Positions 17,129 through 48,845 of a stretch of DNA of 51,046 nucleotides are shown here, one piece after another. Origin of the DNA: a virus. Every line of letters begins with the position of its first letter. The first letter of the stretch is position 1. The stretch covers positions 1 to 51,046 of the IMG/VR virus record IMGVR_UViG_3300021247_000520. One strand, given 5' to 3'. The position numbers and the translations under genes are program-made. Below the pieces are notes generated by a model. The model worked only from the letters and a program-made list of their open reading frames with translations. It did not search any database and was not told the DNA's origin.

Positions 17129-17770
17129 TTATTTTTTCTTACAATTGTCAAAGTGATAACGTAGCATAACTGGAGCTCCTCCAACTAATCCGCAATGGGG
17201 ACATTCTTTTTTGGGCTTAGGAACTCTTGCTTTAGGTCTTGGTTTGGATATTGCTATTCTAACTCTCTCAACGACTTCTTTATCAAACATTGGATTATTT
17301 TTCTTCATCCTTTCAGACTGCTCCGGAAATTTCTTTCCGTAGTTGGGATTATTTTCTCCTAGTTTACCATACATTGGATTTTTAGTTCCTCTATTATCGA
17401 CTGTAAAGTAACCTATCTTTCCATACATAGGGTTTTTAGATCCTAAAAAAAGTTTTGATAGATAATCTGCATGAAGTTTTCTAAATCTTTCATAAGTTCT
17501 ACTAGATATTTTATAATCTCTTTTGTGATTATCACTTTTTGTATTACTCATCATCCAAACCGCATTGACTAATTTTTTGTGTTCTGGATAAATTTCACAT
17601 AGCAACAAATGACAGAGAAAGTGTTCTCTAGCAGTTAATTCAACTATATTTTCTATTTTATCAGGTCCTCCAATGCATTTTGGAATTATGTGATGTTTTT
17701 CTACGTAGCCTTCTAATTTTCTTGTTTTTGCTTTTTCAATGATACTCTCGTAAATTCTACTGTAATTCAT
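17129..17770 (-). CDS. HNH homing endonuclease with NUMOD3 beads and C-terminal zinc finger
   Basis: The 213-residue protein has an HNH core (EKHHIIPKCIGG, then an Asn in the ENIVEL turn and the REHFLCH helix). It then has NUMOD3-type repeats (SKNPMYGK, TKNPMYGK, ENNPNYGK), and ends with a CPHCGLVGG...RYHFDNC zinc finger. The same finger ends the GIY-YIG enzyme at 20572. It lies downstream of a kissing-loop leader (17781-17884), next to groEL. This is a free-standing homing endonuclease. Confidence 0.88.
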   Translation of the reverse strand: MNYSRIYESIIEKAKTRKLEGYVEKHHIIPKCIGGPDKIENIVELTAREHFLCHLLLCEIYPEHKKLVNAVWMMSNTKSDNHKRDYKISSRTYERFRKLHADYLSKLFLGSKNPMYGKIGYFTVDNRGTKNPMYGKLGENNPNYGKKFPEQSERMKKNNPMFDKEVVERVRIAISKPRPKARVPKPKKECPHCGLVGGAPVMLRYHFDNCKKK

Positions 17771-20571: not shown

Positions 20572-21216
20572 TTATCTTCTAAGTGCTTTACAGTTCATAA
20601 AATGATATCTAGTCATATTAGCAACGCCTCCAACTTTAGAACAGTGAGGACATGTTGATACTTTACCTTTTAAAGCTACGCTCTTTTTAATTTTTGTTTC
20701 AACTCTATTTTGAGAAATTTTTCCAGATTCACTCTTTTTTAATTTCACTTCTGGTCGATTCTGAACTTCTTTTTGTACTTTTTTTAAAGATTCACTTTTA
20801 AGTTTCTTCGTGCTCTCTAAATTTTGAAAAATTTTAGCTGATTCACTCTTTTTTAGTTTTGTGATTTCAGAATCTTTTTTTCCTTTTCTAGCTATACTCA
20901 TTTTTAACTTCGTCTCTTCTCCAAGTCTTCCACTTTTGCTTTTTGTACTTGTGTATACGCAGTTTAATCCTTTTTTTACACAATCGTACAACTCTTGATA
21001 GTGTCTTTCTAGTCTATTAATTTCAGTCTCTTCGCATTCTTCCAATATCAAGAATTCATGATTATTCCAACCATAATCCAATATAGATGCGTACAGTTTA
21101 GTTTGCAGTTTACAATTTATATTTTTATACTCTTTAAGTCTTCTATCTAAATCTAAGCTCTTACCTATATAAACTGCTCCAATAGGGTTTGTTATTTTGT
21201 AAATTCCAGAAGCCAT
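20572..21216 (-). CDS. GIY-YIG homing endonuclease with C-terminal zinc finger
   Basis: I start at the Met at 21216 (MASGIYKI), because it follows the conserved leader and gives the normal GIY-YIG start; the frame itself continues to 21234. GIYKI and VYIGKSLDLDRRL form the nuclease core. The middle is built of repeated KxKKSESxKxxQN units that replace NUMOD3 beads. The C-terminal CPHCSKVGG...RYHFMNC finger is nearly the same as in the HNH enzyme at 17129. It is located between hsp20 and polA. Confidence 0.9.
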   Translation of the reverse strand: MASGIYKITNPIGAVYIGKSLDLDRRLKEYKNINCKLQTKLYASILDYGWNNHEFLILEECEETEINRLERHYQELYDCVKKGLNCVYTSTKSKSGRLGEETKLKMSIARKGKKDSEITKLKKSESAKIFQNLESTKKLKSESLKKVQKEVQNRPEVKLKKSESGKISQNRVETKIKKSVALKGKVSTCPHCSKVGGVANMTRYHFMNCKALRR

Positions 21217-21226
21217 AAAATAAAAA

Positions 21227-21328
21227 TGATCCAAGAAGAAATAGCGTTTGCGACCCGCTAAATCCTAATGGATCAATATTTTTAATGTAGATTACTAGTC
21301 GCAATAGTATTCTATCTACAATAAATAT
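21227..21328 (-). ncRNA. Kissing-loop leader RNA upstream of homing endonuclease, copy 3
   Basis: Hairpin A has stem TGTAGAT/ATCTACA (21320-21314 with 21292-21286) and inner stem TACTA/TAGTA, closing loop TTGCGAC (21304-21298). The second domain is closed by TGATCC/GGATCA (21275-21270 with 21232-21227). It contains hairpin TAGCG/CGCTA (21260-21256 with 21246-21242), whose loop includes GTCGCAA (21254-21248), the exact complement of loop A. ATATTTAT is at 21328-21321 and ATTTTTATTTT leads into the ATG at 21216. Confidence 0.75.
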
Positions 21329-21330
21329 CA

Positions 21331-23634
21331 TCAATGTCCGTCTTTGAAATTTTTTGTTATTTGCGGAACTGCAACCAATTCAATGCTTAATTTAACAGTG
21401 TTTTCCATTTTTTCTTGAACTATAGCCTTAGCTTCATCTGCTCTAGAATCTTCTACTTCCATAAGTAGCTGATCATGGATTTGTGCACACACCCAACCAT
21501 TTATTCCTCGATTTTTAAATTCTCTATTTATAGCAATTGCTGATCTATTAACTATTGATGCTGCTAAAGACTGAATTTGAAAATTCATACAATTATTAAT
21601 TCCATTAACATAATCTCTCTTAACGCTTTTTATGGCTTCTACTCCATGTTCTCGTTCTAGTTGTTTTACGAAGTTATAGTCCAACATACCATCTCCTACT
21701 TTATCGTAAATAGCTTTTACTTTTGGAAGGTGACGAATTCGACCTAGTTGATTTTTTATAGAGCCTTGACTTTTAGTAAAGTCTTTTGAATCTTCCATCC
21801 ACTTTTTTAATTCAGGAAATCCATTTAAGTATCCATCTACCAATACTTTAGCTTCTTTTGTACTAACTCCTATATTCTTTCCTAATGCGTAAGCTCCCAT
21901 TCCATAAGGAATTCCTAAAGAATAAGCTTTAGCTTTATTTCTAAGTTGAGGAGCTACTTTTTTTAGAAAGTTATTTGCCTTTTTGTCAGCTGAGTACTCA
22001 TTTAATTTTTCTGTTTTTATCGCAATAGTAGAATAAAAGTCCCAGTTATTTCTAAAGATATCTTTAAGACCTTCGTCTCCAGATACATGAGAAAACACTT
22101 TTGGTTCGAGAGACTCATAATCGCAATCTATAAACACATTAGTGTGTTCTGGTATAAAAAACTCTCGAACTCGATTATTATATCTTAAGACTATAGGATC
22201 GTCTTCTCCCTCTTCTTTAGGTCTAGGTAGTTGTTGCATATCTGACCCATATCTTCCTGATACCGTAGCATGTTGTTTGTAATATGCGTAATATCGACCA
22301 TTCTCAGATCTCTCTAAAAATCTATCTACGTAAGTGGACTTTATCTTTAGCAATCTGTTATAGATTCTAAGGTTTTTTGCCCAGTCGTGCTTGTCTGCGA
22401 TGGATTGTATAAGATCGTCATCAAACTGTGGCTTGCCTTTCTTGGTTTGAGAAAGAGGTTTTATTCCCAGTGCTCCAAAAGCGATTTCACCTAATTGATC
22501 TTTTGACTGGATGTTGAAGTAAAGTCCATCGTTTTGTTCTTTCCACATTTCTAAACTAATCTTAGTGGCTAACGTGCTATCTAAGTACTTTTGATCTCCC
22601 GTAACTAAAAACTCTTTAAGATCACCGTCAGGCATAGATCTTATGTTAGCCTCGTTTAGATTGAACTTTCCAGTTTTTTCAGACTTAGGAAATTCTATGT
22701 CTAGAGCATTCATGTATCTATTGATCCACGCTCCTTTGTTAGTAAATGGATAAGCTTCAGTTGCTTTGATAATCACCCAGAGCTTCGTTTCTTGCTTAGA
22801 CATTAGTTGATTTGTTACTTCATCTAAGTATCTTTTCATCGTCTCCTGTATCTCTGTATTAGTCTTGGAGACTAACTCCATATCAAGCCTAACTCCCTTT
22901 TGTTCCATAGGAATAGTAACTTCCTTATAGAGCGGCATTACTTCGTCTTCAAAGAAAAGCTTATCGAGATCTTCTTCGTACAGTTTCTTTATAAAGTGAT
23001 TGTAGAGTCTTAGAGTTAAGTCCGTATCGGCAATGGCGTACTTTGCAAGTATGCTTAGATCAGCTTTCCAAATCTCGTAATTGTCTTTAGTAATAGATCC
23101 TCCGTTTGCTTTGATAGAAGTCTTAAGCTCTATCTGTTCTTCGTTAGCTTCTTTCTCTACGTCTAAACCGATATCTTTCTGAATGGACTTTGCCAATTCT
23201 TTGAGACCGAAAGGCTTTCCTGATCCGAATCCTGCGCCTTCCTCTTGAACTGTATGTACTAATAAAAGAGTATCGGCGTGTAAGCTAGAAAGTAGATCTA
23301 CTCCATAGAAGTTCTTTACGAACGGACCATCGAAAGCAAAGTTGTGTGCAATTATCTTTTTGCCAATAAGAAACGTAAGATACTTTTTTGCTAGATCGTG
23401 AGATAGAATGTCTTCTATGTAATTATCTACCAATTCTCCGTTAGAGAGAACCATCGTTGGAAGATAGTAACCTTGTCCTACTTCTGTAGAGACAGAAAAA
23501 CCAATTATTTTACCAGTCCTCGTGTTAAGACTATTGGTTTCTATATCGAAAGATACGATCTCTTTGTCTTTTACGTGAGCGATCATATCTTTAAACTTGG
23601 ACATACTGTCCACTAACACATAACTTTTTTCCAT
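21331..23634 (-). CDS. polA: Family A DNA polymerase with 3'-5' exonuclease
   Basis: The protein is 767 residues. The N-terminal DEDD proofreading domain is visible (FDIETNSL, AHNFAFDG, IADTDLTLRLY). Polymerase motif A is DCDYESLEP (catalytic D503 or D505), motif B RNKAKAYSLGIPYG (from about 565) and motif C IHDQLLMEV (about 719-727), where the usual HDE reads HDQ. No 5'-3' exonuclease domain is attached; a separate one is at 29134. It is the main replicative polymerase candidate. The 3' kilobase next to the homing endonuclease looks clearly more AT-rich than the rest. Confidence 0.93.
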   Translation of the reverse strand: MEKSYVLVDSMSKFKDMIAHVKDKEIVSFDIETNSLNTRTGKIIGFSVSTEVGQGYYLPTMVLSNGELVDNYIEDILSHDLAKKYLTFLIGKKIIAHNFAFDGPFVKNFYGVDLLSSLHADTLLLVHTVQEEGAGFGSGKPFGLKELAKSIQKDIGLDVEKEANEEQIELKTSIKANGGSITKDNYEIWKADLSILAKYAIADTDLTLRLYNHFIKKLYEEDLDKLFFEDEVMPLYKEVTIPMEQKGVRLDMELVSKTNTEIQETMKRYLDEVTNQLMSKQETKLWVIIKATEAYPFTNKGAWINRYMNALDIEFPKSEKTGKFNLNEANIRSMPDGDLKEFLVTGDQKYLDSTLATKISLEMWKEQNDGLYFNIQSKDQLGEIAFGALGIKPLSQTKKGKPQFDDDLIQSIADKHDWAKNLRIYNRLLKIKSTYVDRFLERSENGRYYAYYKQHATVSGRYGSDMQQLPRPKEEGEDDPIVLRYNNRVREFFIPEHTNVFIDCDYESLEPKVFSHVSGDEGLKDIFRNNWDFYSTIAIKTEKLNEYSADKKANNFLKKVAPQLRNKAKAYSLGIPYGMGAYALGKNIGVSTKEAKVLVDGYLNGFPELKKWMEDSKDFTKSQGSIKNQLGRIRHLPKVKAIYDKVGDGMLDYNFVKQLEREHGVEAIKSVKRDYVNGINNCMNFQIQSLAASIVNRSAIAINREFKNRGINGWVCAQIHDQLLMEVEDSRADEAKAIVQEKMENTVKLSIELVAVPQITKNFKDGH

Positions 23635-26941: not shown

Positions 26942-28315
26942 TTATAATCCTAGTTCAAAGAACTTTGATTTTAGATACTGTTTTTCGTCTGTAGAAAAAT
27001 TAGACTTATTTACTGGCTTCATTTGATCCGAGGCGTTAGATAATTCCTCTTCTCCGAGTTCCGAATTCTCTATCAGTATGTTTCCGTTAGACGTGTTTAT
27101 TTTTGCTCCGTAAGTCATACCGTCTTGACCAAATCGATTCTTCATGATGTGCATCCTTGCTGTACCGCTTGCTTTGTCCTTTCTTTTCCTTGACCAAGAC
27201 ATGATAAAGTCTGCGATCATGATCTTACCGTAAGATCCTGCGGCTTTGTCTCCCTCGATCACATCGTCGTTAGCTCCTGCTCTGTTTACCTGAGACACTG
27301 TCCACACCGGCATTTTAAACTGCCTTGCCATTCCTTTAGTTGCTGTATACACGTCGTCGATCTCGTCTCTTCTTTCTGAAGATCTGCTTTTTGACTTAAG
27401 TAAATCTACGTAATCTATGATGATTAGATCAGGTGTTTTTCCTAGTGTGATACATTTTTGTATGTGAGACTCGATAGTAGATATCGTAGTCTTTCCCATT
27501 GGATATTCCTTAACGGTTAGTTTTCCTGGTAGTTTTTCAATCGCTTTTTCTATTTCTGGTCTGTGCAAGTGAATCTGTTGAAAATCAATGCCAGTGAATA
27601 TAGAATCGTATCTTTTACCTACATACTCTTGAGAAAGTTCTAGTGTATAGTGGTTAACGTTATAACCAAGTTTGACTGCTTCAGCTCCAAGATTAATAAG
27701 GATCCATGATTTTCCTGCTCCTGGACTACCGAATACAATTCCAAAATCTCCGCTACCGAGTCCACCCATAAGAAGCTCATTAACTTTAGGCCAAGGAGTT
27801 CCCATTGGTCTGCGATCTTCGTTTCTGTATCGACTTTCGATGTCCTTTTCGTATTCCATTCCGATAAGCTTATCTTGACCAGATTTTAGAGCTCTATCGA
27901 TTATGGTTCTAATATCGTCGTATTGTCCTCGACCAAGCAAGTCTACTGAGGTTAATAATGCTTTCTTTAACTGTTGGTTTTTACAGAAGTTACTAAACTC
28001 CTCTTCTACGTAAACCCTATCGTCATTGGAGCTCTTCAGAGCTTCTCTGAGCTGTTCAGCTACACTTACCTTTAGTACTTCATTGTCCATCTTTTTAACC
28101 TCGATGGATAAGTACTCAGGCGTTGGATTAGTGTGATACTTCTGAAAATAGGAAAGAGTGTGTTTAATGATCCACTGATGACTTGGATTATCGAATTCTT
28201 CTGGATCTAATACGTCTACGATGTTTTGTAGGAATTCTTTGTGCTTTAGTAAGCTAGAGATAACCTTAATTTGAAAACCGTTGCCATAACTATTTAACGT
28301 GTTCAGCACTGCCAT
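26942..28315 (-). CDS. DnaB-like replicative helicase
   Basis: The 457-residue protein has an N-terminal DnaB-type helical domain, Walker A GSPGAGKS at 196-203, Walker B in LIIIDYVDLL near 305, and the later VSQVNRAG and DFIMSWSRKRK segments of the RecA-like DnaB core. It unwinds DNA at the fork as a hexamer. No primase domain is attached. A homing endonuclease gene separates it from the flap nuclease gene. Confidence 0.92.
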   Translation of the reverse strand: MAVLNTLNSYGNGFQIKVISSLLKHKEFLQNIVDVLDPEEFDNPSHQWIIKHTLSYFQKYHTNPTPEYLSIEVKKMDNEVLKVSVAEQLREALKSSNDDRVYVEEEFSNFCKNQQLKKALLTSVDLLGRGQYDDIRTIIDRALKSGQDKLIGMEYEKDIESRYRNEDRRPMGTPWPKVNELLMGGLGSGDFGIVFGSPGAGKSWILINLGAEAVKLGYNVNHYTLELSQEYVGKRYDSIFTGIDFQQIHLHRPEIEKAIEKLPGKLTVKEYPMGKTTISTIESHIQKCITLGKTPDLIIIDYVDLLKSKSRSSERRDEIDDVYTATKGMARQFKMPVWTVSQVNRAGANDDVIEGDKAAGSYGKIMIADFIMSWSRKRKDKASGTARMHIMKNRFGQDGMTYGAKINTSNGNILIENSELGEEELSNASDQMKPVNKSNFSTDEKQYLKSKFFELGL

Positions 28316-28327
28316 AACTTTTTGTTT

Positions 28328-29119
28328 TTAATTTTTATACTTCCAAATATATCCTCCTGCGGATTTTCTTTTTCCTAAACAAACTTGATCTATATGAAAA
28401 ATGTTTAGTTCTGTCTTAGCGTTTATTATACAATTCCAAGATTTTATGAAATTGCCTTGTAAATCAAATTGATCTACTTTTTTTGCTCTAGGATTATTCT
28501 CTTTTTGCTTAGACTCTTTCATTTTTTTGCGAGATTCTTCATTTTTCATAGGATGTCTATCACTATTCATATATGATTTTATAGTGCTAACGAATTTTTC
28601 GCTTTGTTTTTTTCCCCACATTGGAGTGCCCTCTCCTTTTTTTCCATACCAATATGCATTGCTTCCTGAAAATTTATCACTATGTTTAATTTTGCGTTCT
28701 TTAGTCCACTTTGATTTTATTTTTTCAGATACATACTGCGGTCTTCCTTTTTTCCATCCATCGTCTATGTAATTTGATAGATCTTTATCGTTTATAAACT
28801 TTGATTTCTCTTCTTTATAAATTGATATTTTTCCATAATTGTAACTACTATACTCCCCTCCATCTGTTAAATTAACTAACGAGCCCAATCCCAAATCTTT
28901 TCTACCATATTTTTTAACAAGATCTCTTTCTATTTGTCCTGCTTCTTCTATAGTAATATTTTCTGCAACTATTTCTACTAAAATTTGAGATTCACTTATT
29001 ACATTTTGCCAATCTATAGATCTTCCATGAAATACTTCTGATCTTTGTCGGGTCTTACCTATTCCTACATAAAATATTTCATTAGTGTCCAATCTTCGAT
29101 GTTGATATACAATTGCCAT
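28328..29119 (-). CDS. GIY-YIG-type homing endonuclease (YQHRR variant) with NUMOD1
   Basis: The 263-residue protein begins VYQHRRLDTNEIFYVGIGK, a divergent GIY-YIG start in which VYQHR replaces GIY and YVG replaces YIG. The middle has NUMOD3-type beads (SNAYWYGKKGEG, TPMWGKKQSE) and the C-terminus is a NUMOD1-like block (VDQFDLQGNFIKSW ... SAGGYIWKYKN). It is a paralogue of the enzyme at 43738. It sits between helicase and flap nuclease genes and lacks the kissing-loop leader. Confidence 0.82.
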   Translation of the reverse strand: MAIVYQHRRLDTNEIFYVGIGKTRQRSEVFHGRSIDWQNVISESQILVEIVAENITIEEAGQIERDLVKKYGRKDLGLGSLVNLTDGGEYSSYNYGKISIYKEEKSKFINDKDLSNYIDDGWKKGRPQYVSEKIKSKWTKERKIKHSDKFSGSNAYWYGKKGEGTPMWGKKQSEKFVSTIKSYMNSDRHPMKNEESRKKMKESKQKENNPRAKKVDQFDLQGNFIKSWNCIINAKTELNIFHIDQVCLGKRKSAGGYIWKYKN

Positions 29120-29126
29120 TTTTATT

Positions 29127-29134
29127 ATAAATAT
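29127..29134 (-). promoter_or_regulatory. Candidate promoter motif ATATTTAT
   Basis: It lies eight bases before the homing endonuclease ATG and overlaps the last base of the upstream gene. Confidence 0.4.
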
Positions 29135-30171
29135 TACTTATATCGGCTAAGATTGTGAAAATTAGTAAAAATCCAATTTTGTAAGTTGTTTATCGCTCCA
29201 CCTAAACCATCTTCGTCATACATCTTCATAAACTCTTTAGAATCTAACGTTTTGCAAGGATTATCGATCATGTTGTGTATATCAACTATAGAATCTTCTG
29301 GTATGTTTGGATTTCTTAGGTCCATCAACTTCTCGTTTATTCTTAGTTGGTACTCGTAATTTTTTATACTCGCAAAGTTTTTTCCTTCTGTCTTTTTTGC
29401 TTTGTCTATAATCTCGTCTAGAGTAATTACTTCGTCGTCTTTTAATTCAGGATACATTTTGGCAAGCGTCTTTTGACCGATACCTTTTACTCCTGGAACG
29501 TTATCTCCATTATCACCGAGTATTACCTTTTGCATTAAGAAATTATTTGGAGAAGAATCGTACTCTTTAATTATAGTCTTCTCGTCGTAAAACTTTTTCT
29601 TCGTAGGCGAATATACGGAAATTCTTTCAGATACTAACTGTAAATAGTCTCGGTCGCTTGATACTATCGTAACGTTTCCTTCTAGCTTGGTAGCAATGTA
29701 TCCTATAACGTCGTCTGCTTCTATTTTGTCTACCGATAGTAGATCTACTGGCAAACACTTTAAGTAGTCTACGAGTCTTGTAAGCTGATTGGTGATGGCT
29801 TCTGACTCTTGTTGTTGGTTATCGAAAAGATCCCAATTGGTAACTCTTCTCACTCCTCTGTTAGCTTTGTATTCTGGGTATAGGTATCTTTTGTTTGTTG
29901 ATCCGCCTTTACCGTCAAAGACTAAGATAACCCTGGTGGGTCTAACTAGATTGATCGTGTATGATAGCGATCTTAAAAATCCAGTTAGACCTCCAATGTG
30001 GTTACCAGAGGGATTAAGGTGACGAATAACAGTAAAAGATCTTAGAAAGCTATTCAAAGAATCCACTATTAGGACTCTATCGTTTACTGATAGTTCTTTC
30101 TCTTGCACAACTTCCTTTATTGACTCTTTATTGCCTAAAGAATCAAATAGCTTTTTCTGTTCTGGTGTCAT
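29134..30171 (-). CDS. 5'-3' exonuclease / flap endonuclease (T4 RNase H type)
   Basis: The 345-residue protein has the FEN/5'-nuclease motifs: VLIVDSLNSF, VFDGKGGSTNKRYLYPEYKA (arch region), EADDVIGYIA, VSSDRDYLQL, and GDNGDNVPGVKGIGQKTL (helix-hairpin-helix with metal acids). It removes RNA primers and flaps on the lagging strand, replacing the domain missing from the phage polymerase. It follows UvsX by one base. Confidence 0.92.
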   Translation of the reverse strand: MTPEQKKLFDSLGNKESIKEVVQEKELSVNDRVLIVDSLNSFLRSFTVIRHLNPSGNHIGGLTGFLRSLSYTINLVRPTRVILVFDGKGGSTNKRYLYPEYKANRGVRRVTNWDLFDNQQQESEAITNQLTRLVDYLKCLPVDLLSVDKIEADDVIGYIATKLEGNVTIVSSDRDYLQLVSERISVYSPTKKKFYDEKTIIKEYDSSPNNFLMQKVILGDNGDNVPGVKGIGQKTLAKMYPELKDDEVITLDEIIDKAKKTEGKNFASIKNYEYQLRINEKLMDLRNPNIPEDSIVDIHNMIDNPCKTLDSKEFMKMYDEDGLGGAINNLQNWIFTNFHNLSRYK

Positions 30172-30172
30172 A

Positions 30173-31246
30173 TTAATCTTCTTTATCGAAAATGTCTGCG
30201 TTAGATGTAGAGTCTTCTACTTCCACTACGTCAAATGTTGCGCTGCCTAAAATCTTACTCCATTCGCTGCTGTGAGCTTTCTTGTACTTTTCTAGTTCGT
30301 TTGGAGTGTCTTTGATGAATCCATGAACGGTCATGATAACTTTGCTAACTGCTGTAACTCCTGTGATGTGATTCTTATCGCAACTAACTTTGGTTCTTTT
30401 TGCGAACTCTACTTCCTTACCGTTCTTTGTAGCCTTGATCTTGTTTGTGCCCGCTGATACGATGTTACCGAATGTGATAACCATAGAAGAATCAAAGTAC
30501 ATTGTGTTTCCACCTTTGTTATTCATTTTTGGTTGACTCATAATGGTCTCAGGTTTCGCTACCCAAATCTTGTTGATCGCTACAAGTGTGTTCGTATAAG
30601 GTTGGCTTTCCTTTCTTGAAAGGATGATTCTCTGATTGATAAAGTTACCAAACTGTTGAGACATCGCTCCTGCGTTCCACTCGTTGTTATTGCTCGACTT
30701 TTCGATACTCATCTTACAAGGAATAGATCCTACAGAGTCCCAAAAGAAACAAAGATCGAATGGAAGATTACCTTTTTTCTGTTCGTCTAAGATGTCTGCA
30801 ATAAATGCAGCTACGTCTTCGATACAGTTTAGTTTTTCTCTATCAATAAAGATAAAGTTGCCTTTGTAATCGTTAACTACTCCGTCTGAATCTGATACTT
30901 CTTCGTAATGAAGTCCCATTTGCCTTGCATGTTCCCAACTCCACTTCATCTCTGTGATAATAAAGACTGGGAGTATTCCCATCTTCTGGCAGGAAACTGC
31001 CGCCTCAAGTAAGGCGGTAGTTTTTCCTGTGTCAGAATGTCCTCTAAGTAGAGTAATGTGTCCAATAGGAATACCAGGCACTTGTAAACCATCACTGAAA
31101 GCTTCAGAAAGCGGAATCCATCTTTGATCTTTGAATTTTACAGAGGTAGAAGATAGATTTTTTGATCTCTTAAAGCTGTCTAGATTGAAGCTTGAGTTAA
31201 TCGCGCTAGACAGCTTTGCGTTTAAACTTTCGTTCGCTTTTGCCAT
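30173..31246 (-). CDS. uvsX: RecA/UvsX-like recombinase
   Basis: The 357-residue protein has Walker A GHSDTGKT at 69-76, a Walker-B-like CFFWDSVGSIP strand and a conserved ALVAINKIW-type strand, in the order of UvsX rather than host RecA. It catalyses strand exchange for repair and recombination-dependent replication. The gp32-like gene lies 12 bases upstream, the same functional pairing as in T4. Confidence 0.9.
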   Translation of the reverse strand: MAKANESLNAKLSSAINSSFNLDSFKRSKNLSSTSVKFKDQRWIPLSEAFSDGLQVPGIPIGHITLLRGHSDTGKTTALLEAAVSCQKMGILPVFIITEMKWSWEHARQMGLHYEEVSDSDGVVNDYKGNFIFIDREKLNCIEDVAAFIADILDEQKKGNLPFDLCFFWDSVGSIPCKMSIEKSSNNNEWNAGAMSQQFGNFINQRIILSRKESQPYTNTLVAINKIWVAKPETIMSQPKMNNKGGNTMYFDSSMVITFGNIVSAGTNKIKATKNGKEVEFAKRTKVSCDKNHITGVTAVSKVIMTVHGFIKDTPNELEKYKKAHSSEWSKILGSATFDVVEVEDSTSNADIFDKED

Positions 31247-31258
31247 GTTTTTGGTTTA

Positions 31259-32089
31259 TTAGAATGAGAACAGATCGTCGATCTTAGATTCTAGATCAGA
31301 CTTTTTGGTACTTAAAGTAAAAGCTGGATTGATTTGAGCTGTAGGAGCTGGTGTTTCGCCTTCCCATGGAAGATCTCCTGCTGGGGCTTGCTTAACTTCT
31401 ACGCTATCTGCTTGTGCTTTAATTTCCTCTTCTGGGTTAAGATAAGTCAAAAGAGCTGATTTCATTTCGTCGTACGAAAACTTCTTGAAAAGTTCCATAG
31501 GATTTGGTTGAGTGTTCAGCCACAATTTAACTTGCTCTGCGTTGTCAGAAAGTGGAGTAATTTTGGTTCTGATACGTACGGTCGATGTGTTGTACATAAG
31601 ACCTGTAGTTTCTTTACCTTGTGTTTCGACTGTGAGATCACGGCCTTCGATAGGATCTGTAAAATCTCCTACGTCTTCGTCTTCTGCGATTGCAAGAAGA
31701 TCCATGTAAACTTGCTTACCAAATTCCCAAAGCCTAACGCCTTTGTCTTCTTCTCCTCGAACGATTACTGGTACGAATACCCTCATCTTTGGTTCAAGCT
31801 TTTTAGCTAGCTGCCAATTGTCCTTTTCTGAAGATTGCCTAAGCTTCTTTGTAAACTCTAGGATCGGATCAGCTTCGCCATAGTTAGAAAGTGCAGGCAT
31901 CATACGATTTGAAATTTCGTAATACACATACATCTCTTTGAATGGATTCGATCTATCGTACAACGATGGTACGATCCTTATCGAATGCTTACCGATGCTC
32001 GGTCTCCAAATGGTTTGGGATTTGTCTTTGTTCTGGCCTTTTGGGTTTTGAAGAGTGGCCAGCCTCTTCTTTAAGAGACTTATATCCAT
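31259..32089 (-). CDS. Single-stranded DNA-binding protein (gp32-like)
   Basis: The 276-residue protein shows the T4 gp32 pattern: N-terminal LKKRLATLQ, core HSIRIVPSLYDRSNPFKEMYVYY, FVPVIVRGEEDKGVRLWEFGKQV, and an acidic C-terminus ending IDDLFSF, which recruits partners. No cysteine is present, so the zinc site of T4 gp32 is missing. It binds ssDNA during replication and recombination, next to UvsX. Confidence 0.88.
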   Translation of the reverse strand: MDISLLKKRLATLQNPKGQNKDKSQTIWRPSIGKHSIRIVPSLYDRSNPFKEMYVYYEISNRMMPALSNYGEADPILEFTKKLRQSSEKDNWQLAKKLEPKMRVFVPVIVRGEEDKGVRLWEFGKQVYMDLLAIAEDEDVGDFTDPIEGRDLTVETQGKETTGLMYNTSTVRIRTKITPLSDNAEQVKLWLNTQPNPMELFKKFSYDEMKSALLTYLNPEEEIKAQADSVEVKQAPAGDLPWEGETPAPTAQINPAFTLSTKKSDLESKIDDLFSF

Positions 32090-32143: not shown

Positions 32144-32575
32144 TTACAAGTTCACAATTTTGTGAATCGCGGTGTTGAGCTTCCTCAAGCTTCCGTCGGG
32201 CTGTGTAAGCAACACCGAATTTTTATACTCCTGCCAATCGATTTGATAAGAGTTATCCAATACCCCGTTATTTTTAGATTTCACGATAGAGTTTAGCGCG
32301 TTTATAGTGTATAACGTGTTTGTTTCTTTTTTTCTGTGTAGCAAGATGGTGTTTGGCAATATCTTCGTACTCGGTCCGTCCACTTCTATGTTGTAGGTAC
32401 ACAGATATTCTTCAGATTCTGGAGAAGACAAAACAAATATCTTGTTGTAGAGTATTTTGTACTCTCTAACGATTTCGTAAAGTCTGTTGTCCAGATCTTC
32501 CTTTTTAGAAAAACTGCAAAAAAGTCGATTCATCAAGGAATCTTGAGTTAAGTTTATAATCTTGTAATTGTCCAT
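32144..32575 (-). CDS. Hypothetical protein (143 aa)
   Basis: The protein has mixed helix and strand (NLTQDSLMNRLFCSF, LDNRLYEIVREYKILYNKIF) without a recognised domain. It lies between the gp32-like gene and a divergent polymerase-like gene, 30 bases downstream of the latter, so a replication accessory role is possible but unproved. Confidence 0.5.
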   Translation of the reverse strand: MDNYKIINLTQDSLMNRLFCSFSKKEDLDNRLYEIVREYKILYNKIFVLSSPESEEYLCTYNIEVDGPSTKILPNTILLHRKKETNTLYTINALNSIVKSKNNGVLDNSYQIDWQEYKNSVLLTQPDGSLRKLNTAIHKIVNL

Positions 32576-32605: not shown

Positions 32606-33916
32606 TTATTGTGTAAACGAGTAATCTTTACCATATACGTGCTTTACTGGGAATCCGTCCTCTTGGAGAATGTCTTTTATCGCTATTAATGTGTCTTTTC
32701 CGTCTTCAGAAGAGAAATCGAAAAGAAAAGCATCGTATGTAATAAGAACTAACTTTGTTTTTTTGTTTGATAAATAATCTTTGATCTTTATTATTTTTTC
32801 TACGTTTGTCTTGGTTTCTAAGTTCTGCAAGATATAGTTAAACAGTTTGTACTTTGTTATCGTACTGTGGTATTTTACCACTCTTCCTGTCGGTAAAGAA
32901 TAAGATCTTTGAGCTTTGTACTTTTTCCACTCTGTTTCTACGTATTCACTAAGCTTTGAAAAGAATCCTATGTGTTGGTACTGAGGATCTACTCCGCCGT
33001 AGAGTTGCCTAAACGTGATGACCTTCGCTTGCTTGTACTCTTCGTCTGTTACTTCGTTTGTAGGCTTATTGAAGTACTGACCGGCTATTATTTTGTGTAG
33101 AGATTCTGAGTTTGGCTGCGTTTCACTTACTAGTTTGGCAATTAGTCTCAAGTGATAGGAATCAAAATCAAATTCAACAAAGAAGTCCTGAGTGGGAACA
33201 AAACAACTTCTATATCCTCCTTCTTTGGGTATCGCTAGAAAGTTTATGCCGCCGAAAGAGTTTGTTGGTCTTCCTGTGATGTTGTATAAGTTATAGCTAG
33301 AATATGCAACGCTGTCTCTGATGACTGTAGAGCTGTTTGGAAGCTGATATACTTTGTTAATGTATTCTTCTTTTACGCCTATTCCGTTATTCTCTACGTG
33401 TCCGTATGCGTCTAGGATAAGATTGTCGAACGTATTGTCTAGCTCCAATCCCATTAAGTACTTTATCTCATCGTAAAAGCACTCACACTTCTCGTAGTGC
33501 TTAGAAATAGGAATGATGTAGTCTATGTTTACTAAGTCTGACTTATTTTGATAGAATGATCTGTGAAACTGAGTGTTGCAGTCTAGCTCTTTAATTTCGT
33601 TCTTAGAGTCTAAGCTTACCAAGTTTAAGTCTATGCAATTAGATACAGATAAATGGTAAGAGTGATACTTCTTGTCTATGAGGTATATCGTCTCGTGTTT
33701 GCTTAGGAACGCATTTATAGATTCTATATATAAAGAGAAGCTTTCTGAGTGGCTTATCGCTAGTATGTATCCCTTTTCACCGTTATTGTAGTAAACCAAG
33801 CTTGGTTGAGCCAGTTTTGAGTGATAAGTAGAATTATTGCATATTAGCTGTATAAAAGCCTTTTTCGTGGCTTCTAATCCTTCTAACTGTTCTTGTTTTT
33901 CTACAATATAATACAT
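32606..33916 (-). CDS. Divergent family A DNA polymerase-like protein
   Basis: The C-terminal half of this 436-residue protein keeps the outline of a family A polymerase: motif A FVEFDFDSYHLRLIAK (246-261; D250 aligned to the catalytic Asp, His255 instead of Glu), motif B QAKVITFRQLYGG (296-308; K and Y kept) and motif C LVLITYDAFLFDF (389-401; Y-D-A instead of H-D-E). NITGRPTN at about 212 fits the template-contact TGR segment. The N-terminal half has no visible DEDD motifs. It is a second such gene beside the full polymerase at 21331. It may be an inactive or specialised polymerase. Confidence 0.7.
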   Translation of the reverse strand: MYYIVEKQEQLEGLEATKKAFIQLICNNSTYHSKLAQPSLVYYNNGEKGYILAISHSESFSLYIESINAFLSKHETIYLIDKKYHSYHLSVSNCIDLNLVSLDSKNEIKELDCNTQFHRSFYQNKSDLVNIDYIIPISKHYEKCECFYDEIKYLMGLELDNTFDNLILDAYGHVENNGIGVKEEYINKVYQLPNSSTVIRDSVAYSSYNLYNITGRPTNSFGGINFLAIPKEGGYRSCFVPTQDFFVEFDFDSYHLRLIAKLVSETQPNSESLHKIIAGQYFNKPTNEVTDEEYKQAKVITFRQLYGGVDPQYQHIGFFSKLSEYVETEWKKYKAQRSYSLPTGRVVKYHSTITKYKLFNYILQNLETKTNVEKIIKIKDYLSNKKTKLVLITYDAFLFDFSSEDGKDTLIAIKDILQEDGFPVKHVYGKDYSFTQ

Positions 33917-34634: not shown

Positions 34635-37600
34635 TTATCCGAATAATGACTTACCTATAAGTTTATAGTTAGTTATTGCGTAATCATAATTTTTAGTATC
34701 TCTACCTTTTATAGGTTTTCCGTTGCTATCATAAAATAAAGATCTATCTGCGGCAGTAAAATACAAATAAGTTTTAGGCACGGTCGATAGTAGATTAACT
34801 GCAGCACCATATATACTATTAGCGGCTGATGAATTAGGACCAGTTTTAAAATTACTAGTATTTCTTCCTGTTACGGATTCAAATTGATTTTTACCCCTAA
34901 GTTGACCGTATACTGTTTTACCGTAATTTCCATAATTTGTTCTTACTCTATTAAGTATTACTCCCATTACGTAAGCCTCTTCTATTTGTTTTCTAGAAGC
35001 TTCTGCAAAAGTTGCGGATACTAATTCTGACCAAGCTGCATCTGTTAACGTGCTTTCTAAATAAGATTCTGCTGATGCTTTAGCTTGTTCATTTGAAGCT
35101 ACAAAATAAGTATTTGCGTATTCTCCGCTTTCTAAAGAGATTGGTAGTGTTGTTTTAAATGCTCTAGCTGGAGCGAATTCTGTTCTTAGTGAATCTTGTA
35201 CGAAGTCCTGTCTTTTTTTCAAAAACATCATGTTAGCTCTAACATTACTTAACCAGTGATTTCCGTCTATTGTTTGATCTAAACCAACTACTACAAATCC
35301 TACTGTATTCGTTTTATCTGATTCTCCGTAAGGATCTCTTAAACTTAGATCGTAAGTGTATGGTAAAAATTCTTTAGATATGGTGAAAGCTTGCCCCATT
35401 CCAAGTCCTGCAAGTCCATCGGTTGAGAAATTTAAGCTTACTGGAATTATAGCAGAAGATCTAGATCCTTTCTCAGCACCCTTTATCTTTGACATTCTTT
35501 CTATAAAATAGTTTGTTGCATGACTTACGCTTGATTCAGCCGGAGTGGTATCGCTATAATAAGTTTCTATCGCTTTGTTAAATTGTATGGCAGAATTTAT
35601 CATAGCGTTTGTTGGAAGAGACGCTGTTACTTGTAATTCTCCACGATCTGCTATATATCTATCTGTGTATCCAAGATTGTAGAATCCAAAGCTATCAGAA
35701 GTTTTTGATAAACTTGAAAGACCAGGTGCTGTTGAATTCGCTGATATGGCTATCATATTTGATAACTTACTAGAGACATCAGTTCTTATTTCTAAGGTTC
35801 TAGCCAAAGATCCTAATCCAAAAAGAGGAAATTCTGTCTTATTCGATATATCAATATAATCTTTTTCAATATTTGGAGTCATTTGATCGTCTGTGATGTG
35901 CATCGTATTTCCAGCATCATCGTAAGCCAATCTAAACATGTTAAAATCTCCCAAATACTTGTTTACATCAAAAAGTATTTGCTCTATAAACTCCTTGGCG
36001 TATATGTCGTTAGATTGGTCTTGTTTGGTATAACTAGAAACCATTTTTAACAAATAATCGGTGCTGATCAGGACATTCATAGTTTTACCTCTATATGCTT
36101 CCGTTTTATCAGTGGAATCAATTATTTTAAACTTAGGTAAACTTGTAGAAAGTCTATCTCCAACTTCTTTATCCTCTGGTTTATAGATTGGAGTTCTTAC
36201 TTCATCAGATCCTGATGGGGCTTTTATAAAGTCTCCATCTATTACGGAAGGTTCAATTATAGCTCTAAAGTCTGAGTTGAATCCTTCAAAAGGGATTAGT
36301 ATGTCGTAAGGATTAGTAGAAAGTTGTTTTGCATTAGACAGGCATATATTTGTTTTAGGATTGAAATCAAAGTAGACTAGTGGAGTCGTATTTTTTTCTT
36401 GTTTTTTAACATCATAAATATTACAAATATGGTTGATTATCATTATTACGAATCCTAACTTTAAGTAAACAGGATGATTTACCTGAGTTCCCTCAAATAC
36501 TCCTGCGTTATACTTGTAAGGTATAGTATAGGTAGTCATGAGTTCTGAGTAATTTACCCAAGCTGAATTTTCGTATAGTTTGTTAGAAGTGGTTTTATTT
36601 CCCATCAAAGAAAAATTAAATCCAAACTTGGATCTAAGTTTTATCATTTTATCCGCCTCTAAACTCGCGTTTATTTGCTGATCATATTCATCACACTCGC
36701 TTTTTATCTTAGCTGGATTGATTTCGAACTCTTTCGTTTTAGGATTGATCTCTCCAATCAAATCATCTAAGATATTAGAAAAAATACCCGCCTCAAATAA
36801 TTTTTTAGTGAATATATCATAGTGTTTTCTACGCGTTAAGTCTAAAACCGACACTAAACTATTTGTTTCTATTCCAGACTTTATAGAATTATCTAATGAG
36901 TATAGTTGTATTGTTCTTACTATTACCTCGAAAGCAGATTGATATTTTAAGGCTTCACTTTTTTGTATTTCACTAATACTCAATGGAGGCTGAGAATCAT
37001 TTGTCTGCTGTGTTTCAGAGGGTTGAGGTCCTACCGTGTCTTTTGGTATAGTCTTGCCTATAAAGTCAATAGGTTCTTTTACATCTGATGGAACAGAGAA
37101 ACTTTTTATGAAATCGCTGTTATCAAAAGTCAGTGTCACTGGAACAAGAAATTGTACATTTTCTTCCGCTATTGATCCTGGCACAACTGTTTTTCTTCCT
37201 AAATCGTCTATTTTTTCTGTTTCATTAATAGATACTTTTACAGTTCTTATAAAAGGAACGTTAAACGTTATGCTTGTTTTAGTTTTTATCGGTTTTACGT
37301 CGATATCTAATATTTCGTATTCGTTATCAGCATTTAATACGCTTATAAGTTGTTTTGTAAAAGTTGGAGTATCTATGTATTCGTAAGCGGCGTTAGTATA
37401 AGTTAATAATCCTCCGTATTCAGTATTTGTATAAGAAGCTATTATATTTCTTTTATTTGAATATCCCCATAAATTTCTTTTTATTGATATCTCATAATCA
37501 AGTCCGTTAGTTGACACATAATTTATTGTTGTATTCGCAGTATCATTGTTTTTTTGTAGTTCCGTAAGTTGTTTCTCTCCATCATTAAGAGGATTAATAG

Positions 37601-38930
37601 CTTGATACGTAAAAGTTAAAGCTTTTAGGATCGCGGTCGGTATAGATTTTATTACGTCTTTCGCTGATTCTAAATACTCTCCTGATATTTCCCAAATTCT
37701 AGGATCACTTAGATCAATAGGTTTTCCTTGTAATTTTGAGCTTTTTAATTTTGTAAGTAGATCTGGAGATAATTTTATCTTAAAATTTTTTGCTTGATCT
37801 GTTGCAATAAACCCTTTTAGTCTTCTAATGAAGTAAACCCAGCCATATCCAGTGGTGTTAAACGAAAAATCTGCTTTATCTAAGTTTACTGGTACGGATG
37901 CTGGATACGATACTTGACCACCGCCTGGATTTTTTGGATTTGTATTAGAATCGTATTTTAAATAATTTCTTATGAATTCTTCGCCAGTTTTACCTACTTC
38001 TGCCGGTGGAGTATCGACTTTATTTTGAGCGTCCGATAATGCTTTTTTTCTAGCCTGATCCTCTTCGTAAATTGTAATTAAAGTCTGAACTAATTGCTTT
38101 ACTATGGCTTCTTGAATATCAGGTAGTATCCTGGGATTATTCATTTTTATTCCGCTAGCTAAAACGCCTAAAGCCATGAGCTTTATAGTGCAATCGTATC
38201 CACCTTCTTGATTGTAGGTAAAATTAAAATTAGTTACTAATCCTAACATTGCATCATAGTTTCCTTGGGAATCTATTATGTTTTTTGAAATTTTATTATA
38301 GATTGTCTCTTTTGTTAATCCATCTGCAAAAGGATCTATACTAAAACGTTCACTGGATTCTACTTTGGTTCCTCCGCTTTCGTAATAAGAAGTGTGACCC
38401 CATTCTAAAAAAAGAGTGTATCCTAACTTAAAAAATAAAGCGTCTATGATATCCAATTGATCCTTATCCCATACTTTTATTTGTATGTCCGCCGATCTTA
38501 TTGATCCCATCTTTCCTTGCGTAGTGACTTTTACGCTTGTGACACCGGGCATGGGACGATATCCGTACTTAGTTGTTTCTTTAAAACCGTCTGTGACGTT
38601 ATAAGCTTGATCTAATCCGCCTCTTTGAAAATAAGAAGATCTATTGTTATATATCGAAGTTCCTCCTTGTAATACGAACTTCTTTGCTAGATCTGATTTA
38701 TCGCTTAACGCCAATCCCATATCGCTAAAATGGGATCTATCTTGGTATTTAGTTATATCTACAGAAGACACCAGTCTTATCCAAGCTGTTTTATTTCCTT
38801 GATAAATAATATTATCAGTGTCTCTTTTATCCGCGCTCATTTGCTTAGATCTCTCATTAAGCTGGTTCATTAACCACTGATTTATGGGTACTCCCATAGC
38901 ATTGCTAACTCTTCCACCTTCTAATCCCAT
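34635..38930 (-). CDS. Baseplate hub protein with C-terminal cell-wall hydrolase
   Basis: This 1431-residue protein is the largest in the window. The N-terminal region contains YGYRPMPGVTSVKVTTQ, the ADIQIKVWDKDQLDIIDAL strand and GYTLFLEWGH, a pattern typical of large-phage baseplate/hub proteins. The last about 125 residues (from 1308) match a SleB-like hydrolase: FAEAS with the probable catalytic Glu, VMGVILNRVR, YGKTVYGQL and NQFESV. It would pierce the periplasm and cut peptidoglycan during infection, comparable in role to T4 gp5. Four bases separate it from the LysM-like gene. Confidence 0.78.
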   Translation of the reverse strand: MGLEGGRVSNAMGVPINQWLMNQLNERSKQMSADKRDTDNIIYQGNKTAWIRLVSSVDITKYQDRSHFSDMGLALSDKSDLAKKFVLQGGTSIYNNRSSYFQRGGLDQAYNVTDGFKETTKYGYRPMPGVTSVKVTTQGKMGSIRSADIQIKVWDKDQLDIIDALFFKLGYTLFLEWGHTSYYESGGTKVESSERFSIDPFADGLTKETIYNKISKNIIDSQGNYDAMLGLVTNFNFTYNQEGGYDCTIKLMALGVLASGIKMNNPRILPDIQEAIVKQLVQTLITIYEEDQARKKALSDAQNKVDTPPAEVGKTGEEFIRNYLKYDSNTNPKNPGGGQVSYPASVPVNLDKADFSFNTTGYGWVYFIRRLKGFIATDQAKNFKIKLSPDLLTKLKSSKLQGKPIDLSDPRIWEISGEYLESAKDVIKSIPTAILKALTFTYQAINPLNDGEKQLTELQKNNDTANTTINYVSTNGLDYEISIKRNLWGYSNKRNIIASYTNTEYGGLLTYTNAAYEYIDTPTFTKQLISVLNADNEYEILDIDVKPIKTKTSITFNVPFIRTVKVSINETEKIDDLGRKTVVPGSIAEENVQFLVPVTLTFDNSDFIKSFSVPSDVKEPIDFIGKTIPKDTVGPQPSETQQTNDSQPPLSISEIQKSEALKYQSAFEVIVRTIQLYSLDNSIKSGIETNSLVSVLDLTRRKHYDIFTKKLFEAGIFSNILDDLIGEINPKTKEFEINPAKIKSECDEYDQQINASLEADKMIKLRSKFGFNFSLMGNKTTSNKLYENSAWVNYSELMTTYTIPYKYNAGVFEGTQVNHPVYLKLGFVIMIINHICNIYDVKKQEKNTTPLVYFDFNPKTNICLSNAKQLSTNPYDILIPFEGFNSDFRAIIEPSVIDGDFIKAPSGSDEVRTPIYKPEDKEVGDRLSTSLPKFKIIDSTDKTEAYRGKTMNVLISTDYLLKMVSSYTKQDQSNDIYAKEFIEQILFDVNKYLGDFNMFRLAYDDAGNTMHITDDQMTPNIEKDYIDISNKTEFPLFGLGSLARTLEIRTDVSSKLSNMIAISANSTAPGLSSLSKTSDSFGFYNLGYTDRYIADRGELQVTASLPTNAMINSAIQFNKAIETYYSDTTPAESSVSHATNYFIERMSKIKGAEKGSRSSAIIPVSLNFSTDGLAGLGMGQAFTISKEFLPYTYDLSLRDPYGESDKTNTVGFVVVGLDQTIDGNHWLSNVRANMMFLKKRQDFVQDSLRTEFAPARAFKTTLPISLESGEYANTYFVASNEQAKASAESYLESTLTDAAWSELVSATFAEASRKQIEEAYVMGVILNRVRTNYGNYGKTVYGQLRGKNQFESVTGRNTSNFKTGPNSSAANSIYGAAVNLLSTVPKTYLYFTAADRSLFYDSNGKPIKGRDTKNYDYAITNYKLIGKSLFG

Positions 38931-45109: not shown

Positions 45110-45140
45110 ACACAAAAAAAAGACCGCAGTGTTGCGGTCT
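45110..45140 (-). terminator. Rho-independent terminator
   Basis: The coding strand reads GACCGCA-ACAC-TGCGGTC followed by eight T. The stem begins at the stop codon of the HNH gene at 45139, so it ends that transcript before the gp26-like gene. Confidence 0.85.
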
Positions 45141-45822
45141 ATTTGTAGTATATTTTGTGATCTTGAAGGAATTGATAGTATTTGCTTCTTGAAGATTTTT
45201 TTTTGGGATTGCTTCCGTATTTAGATCCGTTTAAGACTTCGTGAAAAATACTGCAATTCATATTTAGCTTATTCGCTAATTGAAGCGCAGATCCAGCTTC
45301 TATTTTTTCTCCTGTTATTTTATTCTCGCAAACTACAATTCCTTTACTAGCTCTTGATTCTTCTCCTGTTTTTCCTAATTTAGATCTTGTTGCGGCTACA
45401 GATATATTTTTTCTTTGTTCTTCAGTAGGTATCCAATTCTTTTTTCCTCCTAATCCATTTTTATTTCCAATCATTTGAACTGACCTAAGTTTTTTCCACT
45501 CTCCACTTTTTTTTCTCTTCCATAATTTCATTAAAGCTTTTCTAGCAGTAGCGTACTCTTCTTCGGTTAATTCTATATCTCCGCTATACGTCATTCTATG
45601 AAAAGCCCATAACATTTTTTCTCCATATATCGAGTGATCTTTAAATGCATCTGCTAAATACTTGTGCACACGATAGTGTTCTTCGGGAGTCAATAAAACT
45701 GTTGAGCTATTTTTATTAAATGATTGAGGAACTATGTGATGAGCTTCATAGTATTCTCCTTTTCCCTTTTCTCTATTTTCTGATAAGGCTTGTCTTACGA
45801 TTTTAAAATACTCCGTTAACAT
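45139..45822 (-). CDS. HNH homing endonuclease
   Basis: The 227-residue protein has the HNH core EAHHIVPQSFNKNSSTV with LLTPEEHYRVHKYL, then a basic helical linker and a C-terminal HTH-like part (GSALQLANKLNMNCSIFHEVL). It lies between tube and gp26 genes, separated on both sides by terminator-like hairpins. Its ATG lies at the end of the U-run of the upstream hairpin (45826-45861), an unusual start context. Confidence 0.85.
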   Translation of the reverse strand: MLTEYFKIVRQALSENREKGKGEYYEAHHIVPQSFNKNSSTVLLTPEEHYRVHKYLADAFKDHSIYGEKMLWAFHRMTYSGDIELTEEEYATARKALMKLWKRKKSGEWKKLRSVQMIGNKNGLGGKKNWIPTEEQRKNISVAATRSKLGKTGEESRASKGIVVCENKITGEKIEAGSALQLANKLNMNCSIFHEVLNGSKYGSNPKKKSSRSKYYQFLQDHKIYYK

Positions 45823-47078: not shown

Positions 47079-48845
47079 TTATCCTCCGAAAGAAGTTCCT
47101 GTCGGCAATACGTTGAAATCAAGTTGGATAAATTCCGCAACCCTTGTAGGTTGTAGGTATATCGTTCCAACCAATTGGTTCCTATCGATTACGTCTGGAG
47201 TGTTGTTTGTTTCGTCCATTACAACTTGGAAAGAGTAGAGACCCTGACGCTGCTGTACTGTTTCAAGGTATGGATTAACTTGGTTTAAGAAGTTGTTCCT
47301 TGTTACTTGAGTGTTTGGTTCGAATACGATTGTTTCTCCAATTTCTCTGATGTACCTCTTAAGTGCGATTAACAACCTTCTAACGTTTACCCTGTCAAGA
47401 GCAGATGCTTTGGATTGAAGAGTCTTTTGACCGTATATTACAGTTCCAACTCCTGGGAATGTTGCGATTGGGTTAACTTTTCCACTGTAAAGTGTGTTTC
47501 TATTATCCACGCTTAACCTTCTTTCTGGCCTAAGCACTGTAGACATTCCACCGCGATTAAGACCGGCTGGTGCGAACCATTCGGCGCTTACCTTATCGTT
47601 GTATTCGTATACTGCTGGTACCAAAGTAGAGGCAGGAACAAAGTTAACTTTTCCAGTCTCTCTGCTAGAGATTTGTACCCATGGCCAATATGTTGCTCCG
47701 TAAGAGTTATCGTAAGTCTGTGATTTTGCAACTGCTTCTGAAATTGACTGTCCGTAACAAGTAGTATCAACTACTGCTATGGCGTCTCCTCTTCCTTGAG
47801 CTAGAGCTAGTACACTGTTTACAACACTATTTGCGTTTTGCATGTTCATTCCAGGAACGTAGATTACATTGAAATCGTAAGCGTCTTGGTTTTTAAGCAA
47901 ACTGATCGCCACTTCATAGTTTTCTACAAATACTCCCTGAACGTTATCTGCTGAATTTGCTACTGTTGCGCTAGTTGTCTTAATGTTCTCAAACATGTTA
48001 AGAGCAGCCTTCTGATAGCATCCCCAAATAGCTCCAGTAGCGCTTCCGAAAGTTCCGTACTGAGATCCTGATCCAGCTTGTGGTAAAGAAGCAGTATATT
48101 GAGCGTAAGCAGATCCGTATTGATTTAGATATCCTGGCGTAGGTAAGTTTACTTGTTTTACTCTTACGTACCTTGATTTGTTAGGATAAGATCCAGTAAT
48201 TTGTAAGTAGTGACTTCCGTCTTCTTCAACTGCAGTTTCTTTAGTATCTCCTATCACGTAAGTGATAAAGTTGTTCTGATTAGGATCTAGGGAAATGTTG
48301 TTCCATGTTTCTAAAACAGTCTTGTTCTGGTCATAGTCATCGCCTCTTCTGATAATAAGACTAAAAAGTCCTGATCCAGAATCTACGTTTGTTACTTCCC
48401 ACCTAATATTTGCGGAAGATCCTGAAGGTAACGCACCCCTAACTACTGCAGAGAGTTGACCGTTATTGTTCATTACTTCACCTTCTGTGATTGTTTCCAA
48501 TACAAAAGAAGGCTTATTGCTTCCTAAAAAAGAAGCTATAGAAGCCGTAGCTGAAGTGTAAGATCCAGAAGCAACACGAGTTACCAAAAGAGAATCGCCA
48601 CCTTGCTCAAAGTAATTGAGGGCAGCGATTGAAGTTAGATATTCGTAAGGCGCGCCTCCAGAAACGAAAGCTGCACCGAATATAGCTTTATATTCAGAAT
48701 AAGAAGTTACAAGTGTCGGATAGTCTACAGGACCTGTTACAGTTGGTCCGAGTATCGCAGCGCCTGCTGCTATTGGTCCTTGCGTTATTTGAGAAAGATC
48801 GTTCTCGGATACGAAGACTCCGGGTGATATGAGAGTTTCTGCCAT
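47079..48845 (-). CDS. Tail sheath protein
   Basis: The 588-residue protein has the contractile sheath opening LISPGVFVSENDLS, GPVDYPTLVTSYSEYKAIFG, a variable middle, and the conserved C-terminal domain with WPWVQISSRETG, LNRGGMSTVLRPERRL, PGVGTVIYGQKTL and VNVRRLLIALKRYI. This defines the phage as a myovirus. The promoter-like motif is 22 bases before the ATG. Confidence 0.95.
   Translation of the reverse strand: MAETLISPGVFVSENDLSQITQGPIAAGAAILGPTVTGPVDYPTLVTSYSEYKAIFGAAFVSGGAPYEYLTSIAALNYFEQGGDSLLVTRVASGSYTSATASIASFLGSNKPSFVLETITEGEVMNNNGQLSAVVRGALPSGSSANIRWEVTNVDSGSGLFSLIIRRGDDYDQNKTVLETWNNISLDPNQNNFITYVIGDTKETAVEEDGSHYLQITGSYPNKSRYVRVKQVNLPTPGYLNQYGSAYAQYTASLPQAGSGSQYGTFGSATGAIWGCYQKAALNMFENIKTTSATVANSADNVQGVFVENYEVAISLLKNQDAYDFNVIYVPGMNMQNANSVVNSVLALAQGRGDAIAVVDTTCYGQSISEAVAKSQTYDNSYGATYWPWVQISSRETGKVNFVPASTLVPAVYEYNDKVSAEWFAPAGLNRGGMSTVLRPERRLSVDNRNTLYSGKVNPIATFPGVGTVIYGQKTLQSKASALDRVNVRRLLIALKRYIREIGETIVFEPNTQVTRNNFLNQVNPYLETVQQRQGLYSFQVVMDETNNTPDVIDRNQLVGTIYLQPTRVAEFIQLDFNVLPTGTSFGG

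Follow-up and report, generated by a model that had tools for sequence, protein, structure and literature searches.

Why a phage with a standard DNA polymerase should also carry a strongly altered relative of the same enzyme family is the question raised by an open reading frame of 436 codons in IMG/VR record IMGVR_UViG_3300021247_000520, of which we analyzed the whole 51,046-nt stretch (hereafter, the window). The frame runs from ATG to stop on the minus strand at 32606-33916, co-directional with its neighbors, and the plus strand across the same interval is rich in stops. A preliminary description, made from the sequence alone, took its product for a second, highly divergent family A polymerase beside a standard one, and both attributions are borne out, the former by agreeing Pfam, phmmer, and fold matches and the latter by matches to DNA_pol_A and DNA_pol_A_exo1.

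32606-33916, minus strand: divPolA1, divergent second family A DNA polymerase, 436 aa (Pfam, immuto gp001, AF2 model, fold match)
33542-33916, minus strand: N-terminal degenerate 3'-5' exonuclease-like domain of divPolA1, about residues 1-125 (fold alignment; carboxylates not conserved)
21331-23634, minus strand: ordinary PolA with exonuclease and polymerase, probable replicase (Pfam; immuto gp199)

Family membership and predicted fold

The Pfam family DNA_pol_A matches the divergent protein with 36.9 bits against a curated cut-off of 34.3 (E = 2.8e-9), and phmmer matches it to the Klenow fragment (E = 2.8e-4), so that its resemblance to a polymerase is not a matter of chance. The ordinary PolA gives E values of 1.2e-66 for DNA_pol_A and 1.6e-11 for DNA_pol_A_exo1 and is 53% identical over its full length to gp199 of Flavobacterium phage immuto; its motif C is HDQ, not HDE, and it has Leu at the position of Klenow Phe762. 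That the second gene arose by recent duplication of the PolA gene in this phage was considered and rejected, as the two proteins show no significant similarity and hhalign of their profiles gives an E value of 0.15.

In the text of Yutin et al. 2024 (PMC11348598), a family named divPolA1 is described from phage immuto and its relatives (14 genomes of 155-190 kb) as having a palm that keeps its catalytic residues, an exonuclease domain that is inactivated, and a shortened thumb, and as occurring beside a regular DNA polymerase, with conserved replication genes downstream. The window protein is homologous to immuto gp001 (35.5% identity, 99% of the query, E = 4e-73) and has the palm Asp residues, the degenerate exonuclease domain, and the short thumb, while its phage also encodes a regular polymerase and has replication genes downstream. 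As every published feature is present, the protein almost certainly belongs to divPolA1, and our finding mainly confirms and extends a described family.

Among 50,697 phage records, relatives were found in immuto (full length) and, at lower coverage, in an uncultured 484-kb phage and Microcystis phage Mel-JY01, and at least 585 IMG/VR stretches, from at least 600 candidates, encode one. The gene also lies on contigs filed as metagenome-assembled genomes of Winogradskyella, Rickettsiaceae, Nitrosopelagicus, and Flammeovirgaceae (L092-L096), which are probably phage contigs binned with their hosts or in error. Relative to the published account, as far as its text extends, what is added here is that the family is much commoner and includes the 484-kb and Microcystis phages, together with an invariance test free of motif-retrieval bias, a strict pairing with a small neighboring gene (orf143), and a census of primases and polymerases.

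An AF2 model of divPolA1, built from a 47-sequence alignment, has a mean pLDDT of 94.1 and a pTM of 0.91. The top Foldseek matches to this model are all Pol I-type polymerases (E of about 1e-18), and VIA-align 2 places residues 1-436 onto the Pol I large fragments of M. smegmatis and Bacillus (Z 27.0, rmsd 3.9, 403-412 aligned), so the palm fold, on which the preliminary description had staked its case, was found in the structure comparison. The fold matches listed are DNA polymerases I, Pol theta, and the apicoplast polymerase; T7-type RNA polymerase is not among them, which excludes nothing. As judged from sequence and model, divPolA1 has the architecture of a Pol I large fragment in which the exonuclease domain is degenerate, the thumb almost absent, and the palm and fingers intact, the core residues Asp250, Asp395, Lys298, Phe302, Tyr306, and Gln364 all being in place.

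In the fold alignment, residue 1 falls at the beginning of the Pol I large fragment (Bst residue 300), and about 125 N-terminal residues match its exonuclease domain. Exonuclease carboxylates are not conserved as a set among 93 divPolA1 relatives: with equivalences judged by eye, the only near-invariant acids are E58 and D96, there is no DxE motif, and the putative D424 position is occupied by H85, which is variable. The earlier statement that the N-terminal half lacks a recognizable exonuclease is correct by sequence and has to be amended by the model, which shows a shrunken exonuclease-type domain. The thumb is reduced to 11 residues (191-202), compared with about 95 in Klenow, in a profile alignment of which one flanking anchor is weak, and the model has no long helix pair at residues 190-199, in agreement with thumb loss.

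Active-site residues and selection

33143-33178, minus strand: motif A, residues 247-258, VEFDFDSYHLRL, with catalytic Asp250 and His255 for Glu710 (alignments of relatives)
32993-33037, minus strand: motif B/O-helix, residues 294-308, YKQAKVITFRQLYGG, with K298, F302, and Y306 invariant (alignments, Klenow profile alignment)
32711-32746, minus strand: motif C, residues 391-402, LITYDAFLFDFS, with catalytic Asp395 and Ala396 for Glu883 (alignments of relatives)

The outlines of motifs A, B, and C were all located, and the substitutions reported for them in the preliminary description were found as given. Motif A reads EFDFDSYHLRL (D250-F-D-S-Y-H255), with His in place of the usual Glu at the Klenow Glu710 position, and motif C reads ITYDAFLFDF, so that Tyr394-Asp395-Ala396 stands where Klenow has His881-Asp882-Glu883; one Asp is kept in each of these motifs (Asp250 and Asp395).

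D250, H255, K298, F302, Y306, and Q364 are identical in 93/93 aligned relatives, and D395 is present in all 91 that reach its column, while position 396 holds Ser in 71, Ala in 20, and Glu in none. Most of these loci had been fetched by motif A or motif C patterns, which makes such conservation partly circular. Because of this bias, invariance was retested on 47 new relatives retrieved only via the neighboring gene orf143, in which D250 and H255 are kept in 44/44, K298, F302, Y306, and Q364 in 46/46, and D395 and D400 in 47/47, whereas D252 and Y294 vary. The catalytic residues hold across members down to 23-35% identity, and the Glu steric gate (Klenow E710) is absent throughout, with His255 in every divPolA1 sequence that has the column.

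Pairwise dN/dS values of 0.035-0.13 among close pairs, together with the invariant residues, rule out a pseudogene or decay, and divPolA1 is under strong purifying selection. Of the possible functions offered in the preliminary description, that of an accessory enzyme is favored, and the same observations disfavor both a clamp-like structural partner and a protein in the act of changing function.

A characterized phage enzyme shows how far such an active site may be altered. In Pol I, Glu710 acts as the ribose gate, and in the PolA of Thermus phage Tt72 the native residue at the position of Glu883 is Ser; Ala there leaves 76% of its activity, Ala at the Glu710 equivalent (E389A) leaves 35%, and Ala at either catalytic Asp leaves 4% (PMC9324360). 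Since Tt72 tolerates changes at both Glu positions, the altered motifs of divPolA1 are not evidence of a dead enzyme, nor does His255 place it outside family A, the Glu710 equivalent being dispensable. The invariant catalytic residues argue for a live enzyme, and from sequence and analogy we consider divPolA1 probably an active polymerase. In divPolA1, the equivalents of Glu710, Glu883, Arg754, and His881 are all replaced together, and we know of no characterized polymerase that has been tested with these four changes combined.

Partner gene, replication neighborhood, and main polymerases

32144-32575, minus strand: orf143, 143 aa, directly downstream of divPolA1 (conserved pairing; model)
31259-32089, minus strand: gp32-type single-stranded DNA-binding protein (Pfam gp32 1.5e-11, phrog_1192 4.8e-18; 49/50 loci)
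30173-31246, minus strand: UvsX/RecA-like recombinase (phrog_97 3.3e-15; 40/42 loci)
29134-30171, minus strand: free-standing 5'-3' exonuclease of Pol I N-domain/flap nuclease type (Pfam 5_3_exonuc_N 1.8e-31; 34/34 loci)
26942-28315, minus strand: DnaB-type replicative helicase (phrog_19 1.7e-75, DnaB_C 1.1e-20; 30/30 loci)

The closest associate of divPolA1 is orf143, which adjoins it in 81/82 loci with enough flank and, among the 50,697 phage records, occurs only in those with divPolA1. An independent scan with orf143 motifs found divPolA1 just upstream on the same strand in 77/77 loci with room upstream, the spacing between the two genes being -7 to 94 bases in 74 cases. In immuto the pair corresponds to gp001 and gp002. 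Orf143 is better conserved than its partner (48.5% versus 35.5% identity to immuto) and acidic (median pI 5.7), has an invariant core, HRKK...NTLYTINALN, and is modeled with a pLDDT of 90.7. No Pfam or PHROG family was found for the window protein and no match worth noting in a PDB sequence search, and the best fold match, the polyomavirus T-antigen origin-binding domain (Z 5.3), is below an informative level. A discussion of orf143 was not found in the text of Yutin et al. 2024 (PMC11348598), its neighborhood figure excepted. Our guess is that orf143 substitutes for the missing thumb of divPolA1.

The counts listed above refer to loci with enough flank and to gene order downstream of divPolA1; upstream of it, the loci compared have tail genes. 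In immuto the order is divPolA1, one or more small genes, the gp32-type SSB, recombinase, 5'-3' exonuclease, DnaB, and ribonucleotide reductase, as in the window, and a second, ordinary PolA lies elsewhere in the genome. A scan for promoters and terminators gave nothing above chance.

Several other genes of the window are recorded here in their own right. A 1,431-aa protein upstream of divPolA1 (34635-38930, minus strand) is kept in 46/48 loci and has a weak C-terminal match to a cell wall hydrolase (PF07486, 9.6e-5, under the cut-off). Probable homing endonucleases of GIY-YIG and HNH types lie at 12110-12757, 17129-17770, 20572-21234, 45139-45822, and 28328-29119 (minus strand), the last inside the replication operon between the DnaB and 5'-3' exonuclease genes. 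A phage GroEL (17892-19816, minus strand; phrog_5725, 1.5e-144) is encoded close to the ordinary PolA, an arrangement shared with immuto, with a small open reading frame in the GroES position just upstream, and the product of 14543-15427 (minus strand) matches phrog_7093, "threonine dehydratase" (1.1e-26), and has no Pfam match.

All nine records of at least 136 kb that were examined encode a full-size PolA or PolB: an ordinary PolA in immuto and the relatives G001, G002, and G003, and PolB in Mel-JY01 (where it adjoins clamp-loader genes), the 484-kb phage, G017, G018, and G019. Neither was found in the 111-kb fragment G020, which is incomplete. A DnaG-type primase is present in 8/8 examined records of at least 158 kb. 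These enzymes being present, divPolA1 is neither the primase nor the only replicase, and both primase replacement as a main role, given DnaG in all near-complete relatives, and sole replicase, given a full PolA or PolB in every examined record of at least 136 kb, were rejected. A search of 10 relatives gave no ATP-dependent ligase; to complete Okazaki fragments, a ligase of the host or of another type would thus be required.

The PolB carriers fall in two places on a small tree with weak support at key nodes, which fits the view, put forward in the text of Yutin et al. 2024 (PMC11348598), that the main polymerase is exchanged. As a side observation, the 484-kb phage (LR756508.1, the record behind L008; record positions 47415-48068, 241441-242250, and 260623-266900) encodes divPolA1, PolB in two open reading frames, and a PolC-type polymerase, that is, three polymerase families in one phage.

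Proposed role and comparison with known systems

Our results lead us to propose that divPolA1 is a catalytically active accessory polymerase that does not proofread and serves to replace primers and fill gaps, a reading to which, as a whole mechanism, we give a probability of roughly 55%. With proofreading lost, the thumb gone, and the 5'-3' exonuclease, SSB, recombinase, and helicase fixed as neighbors, short gap filling is the most economical role, as inferred from the gene neighborhood. The enzyme would be catalytically active, with a sugar gate altered by His in place of Glu710, would not proofread, and, with no thumb to hold the duplex, would work slowly and distributively; the role of replicase would fall to the ordinary PolA or PolB. 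The neighboring 5'-3' exonuclease may remove RNA primers or flaps, leaving short gaps that divPolA1 would fill, and divPolA1 may also act at UvsX-driven recombination or repair intermediates. Recruitment would be via gp32 or DnaB and the obligatory partner orf143, which may stand in for the thumb. The two jobs of Pol I, 5' exonuclease and gap filling, would then be divided between two separate genes within a single replication operon. We further speculate, with little confidence, that divPolA1, as a thumbless, gate-altered core, and orf143, as a small thumb-replacing protein of no recognized family, are the obligate subunits of one polymerase of new design, used for a replication step beyond the reach of the replaceable PolA or PolB, and that this polymerase may tolerate or prefer ribonucleotides.

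Among the alternatives, the one that fares best, unlikely though it seems to us, is a translesion or recombination polymerase that works mainly on UvsX-made D-loops and damaged templates instead of replacing primers. Lack of proofreading, distinctness from the replicase, and a UvsX gene close downstream in 40/42 loci would all suit such an enzyme, but the 5'-3' exonuclease (34/34) and DnaB (30/30) fit lagging-strand work equally, and no feature specific to lesion bypass was identified in divPolA1.

We think it rather improbable that divPolA1 is dead or nearly so, its polymerase fold being retained only to give the replisome a clamp-like or tethering scaffold. Loss of Glu883, one of several changed active-site side chains that might suggest this, is tolerated in the active Tt72 PolA (PMC9324360). 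Loss of the exonuclease and thumb, the obligate small partner, and the fixed operon position are also compatible with a structural subunit, but a dead fold would not need the metal-binding Asp residues and the dNTP-binding Lys, Phe, and Tyr that are invariant here.

T7-type RNA polymerases lack both Glu residues that mark DNA polymerases, and their motif C is HDS. A PolA turned primase or RNA polymerase, making primers or using ribonucleotides, could be read from the Ser or Ala at position 396, which resembles that motif, from the grouping with SSB and DnaB, and from the invariant His255 at what in Pol I is the ribose gate (PMC9324360), but it is the least probable reading, as the DnaG-type primase in 8/8 records of at least 158 kb already covers the function and the best structural matches among those listed in a general fold search are DNA polymerases.

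A whole group of large aquatic phages thus retains a stripped-down second polymerase in a fixed operon while the main polymerase family varies between relatives, which suggests a division of labor in phage replication. The strict pairing of divPolA1 with orf143 offers a concrete protein pair to test, and for polymerase chemistry the family represents a natural active site without both marker glutamates, the rest of which is under strong selection.

With the large fragment of bacterial Pol I (Klenow, Bst, M. smegmatis), divPolA1 shares the fold, motifs A, B, and C, both catalytic Asp residues, and the O-helix residues, but it is about 140 residues shorter, its thumb is nearly deleted, E710 is replaced by H, E883 by A or S, and H881 by Y, and R754 is lost; unlike in bacterial DNA polymerase I, the 5'-3' exonuclease is encoded by a separate gene. 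The Tt72 polymerase is an active phage PolA that likewise lacks Glu883, having Ser there, but unlike divPolA1 it retains the Glu710 equivalent together with strong 3'-5' exonuclease activity (PMC9324360). The divPolA2 of barbaviruses, in the text of Yutin et al. 2024 (PMC11348598), likewise accompanies a regular polymerase as a second, divergent PolA and has no exonuclease activity, but its N-terminal globular domain is unrelated and resembles no known domain, and its gene contexts vary, whereas the window protein lacks such a domain, its N terminus matching the Pol I exonuclease domain from residue 1 in the fold alignment, and has a fixed context. The closest known system is the divPolA1 of immuto, as described in that text, with full-length homology, the same domain changes, a regular polymerase alongside, and the same replication operon, from which the window phage differs as a distinct lineage (35.5% identity to gp001) and in no categorical respect.
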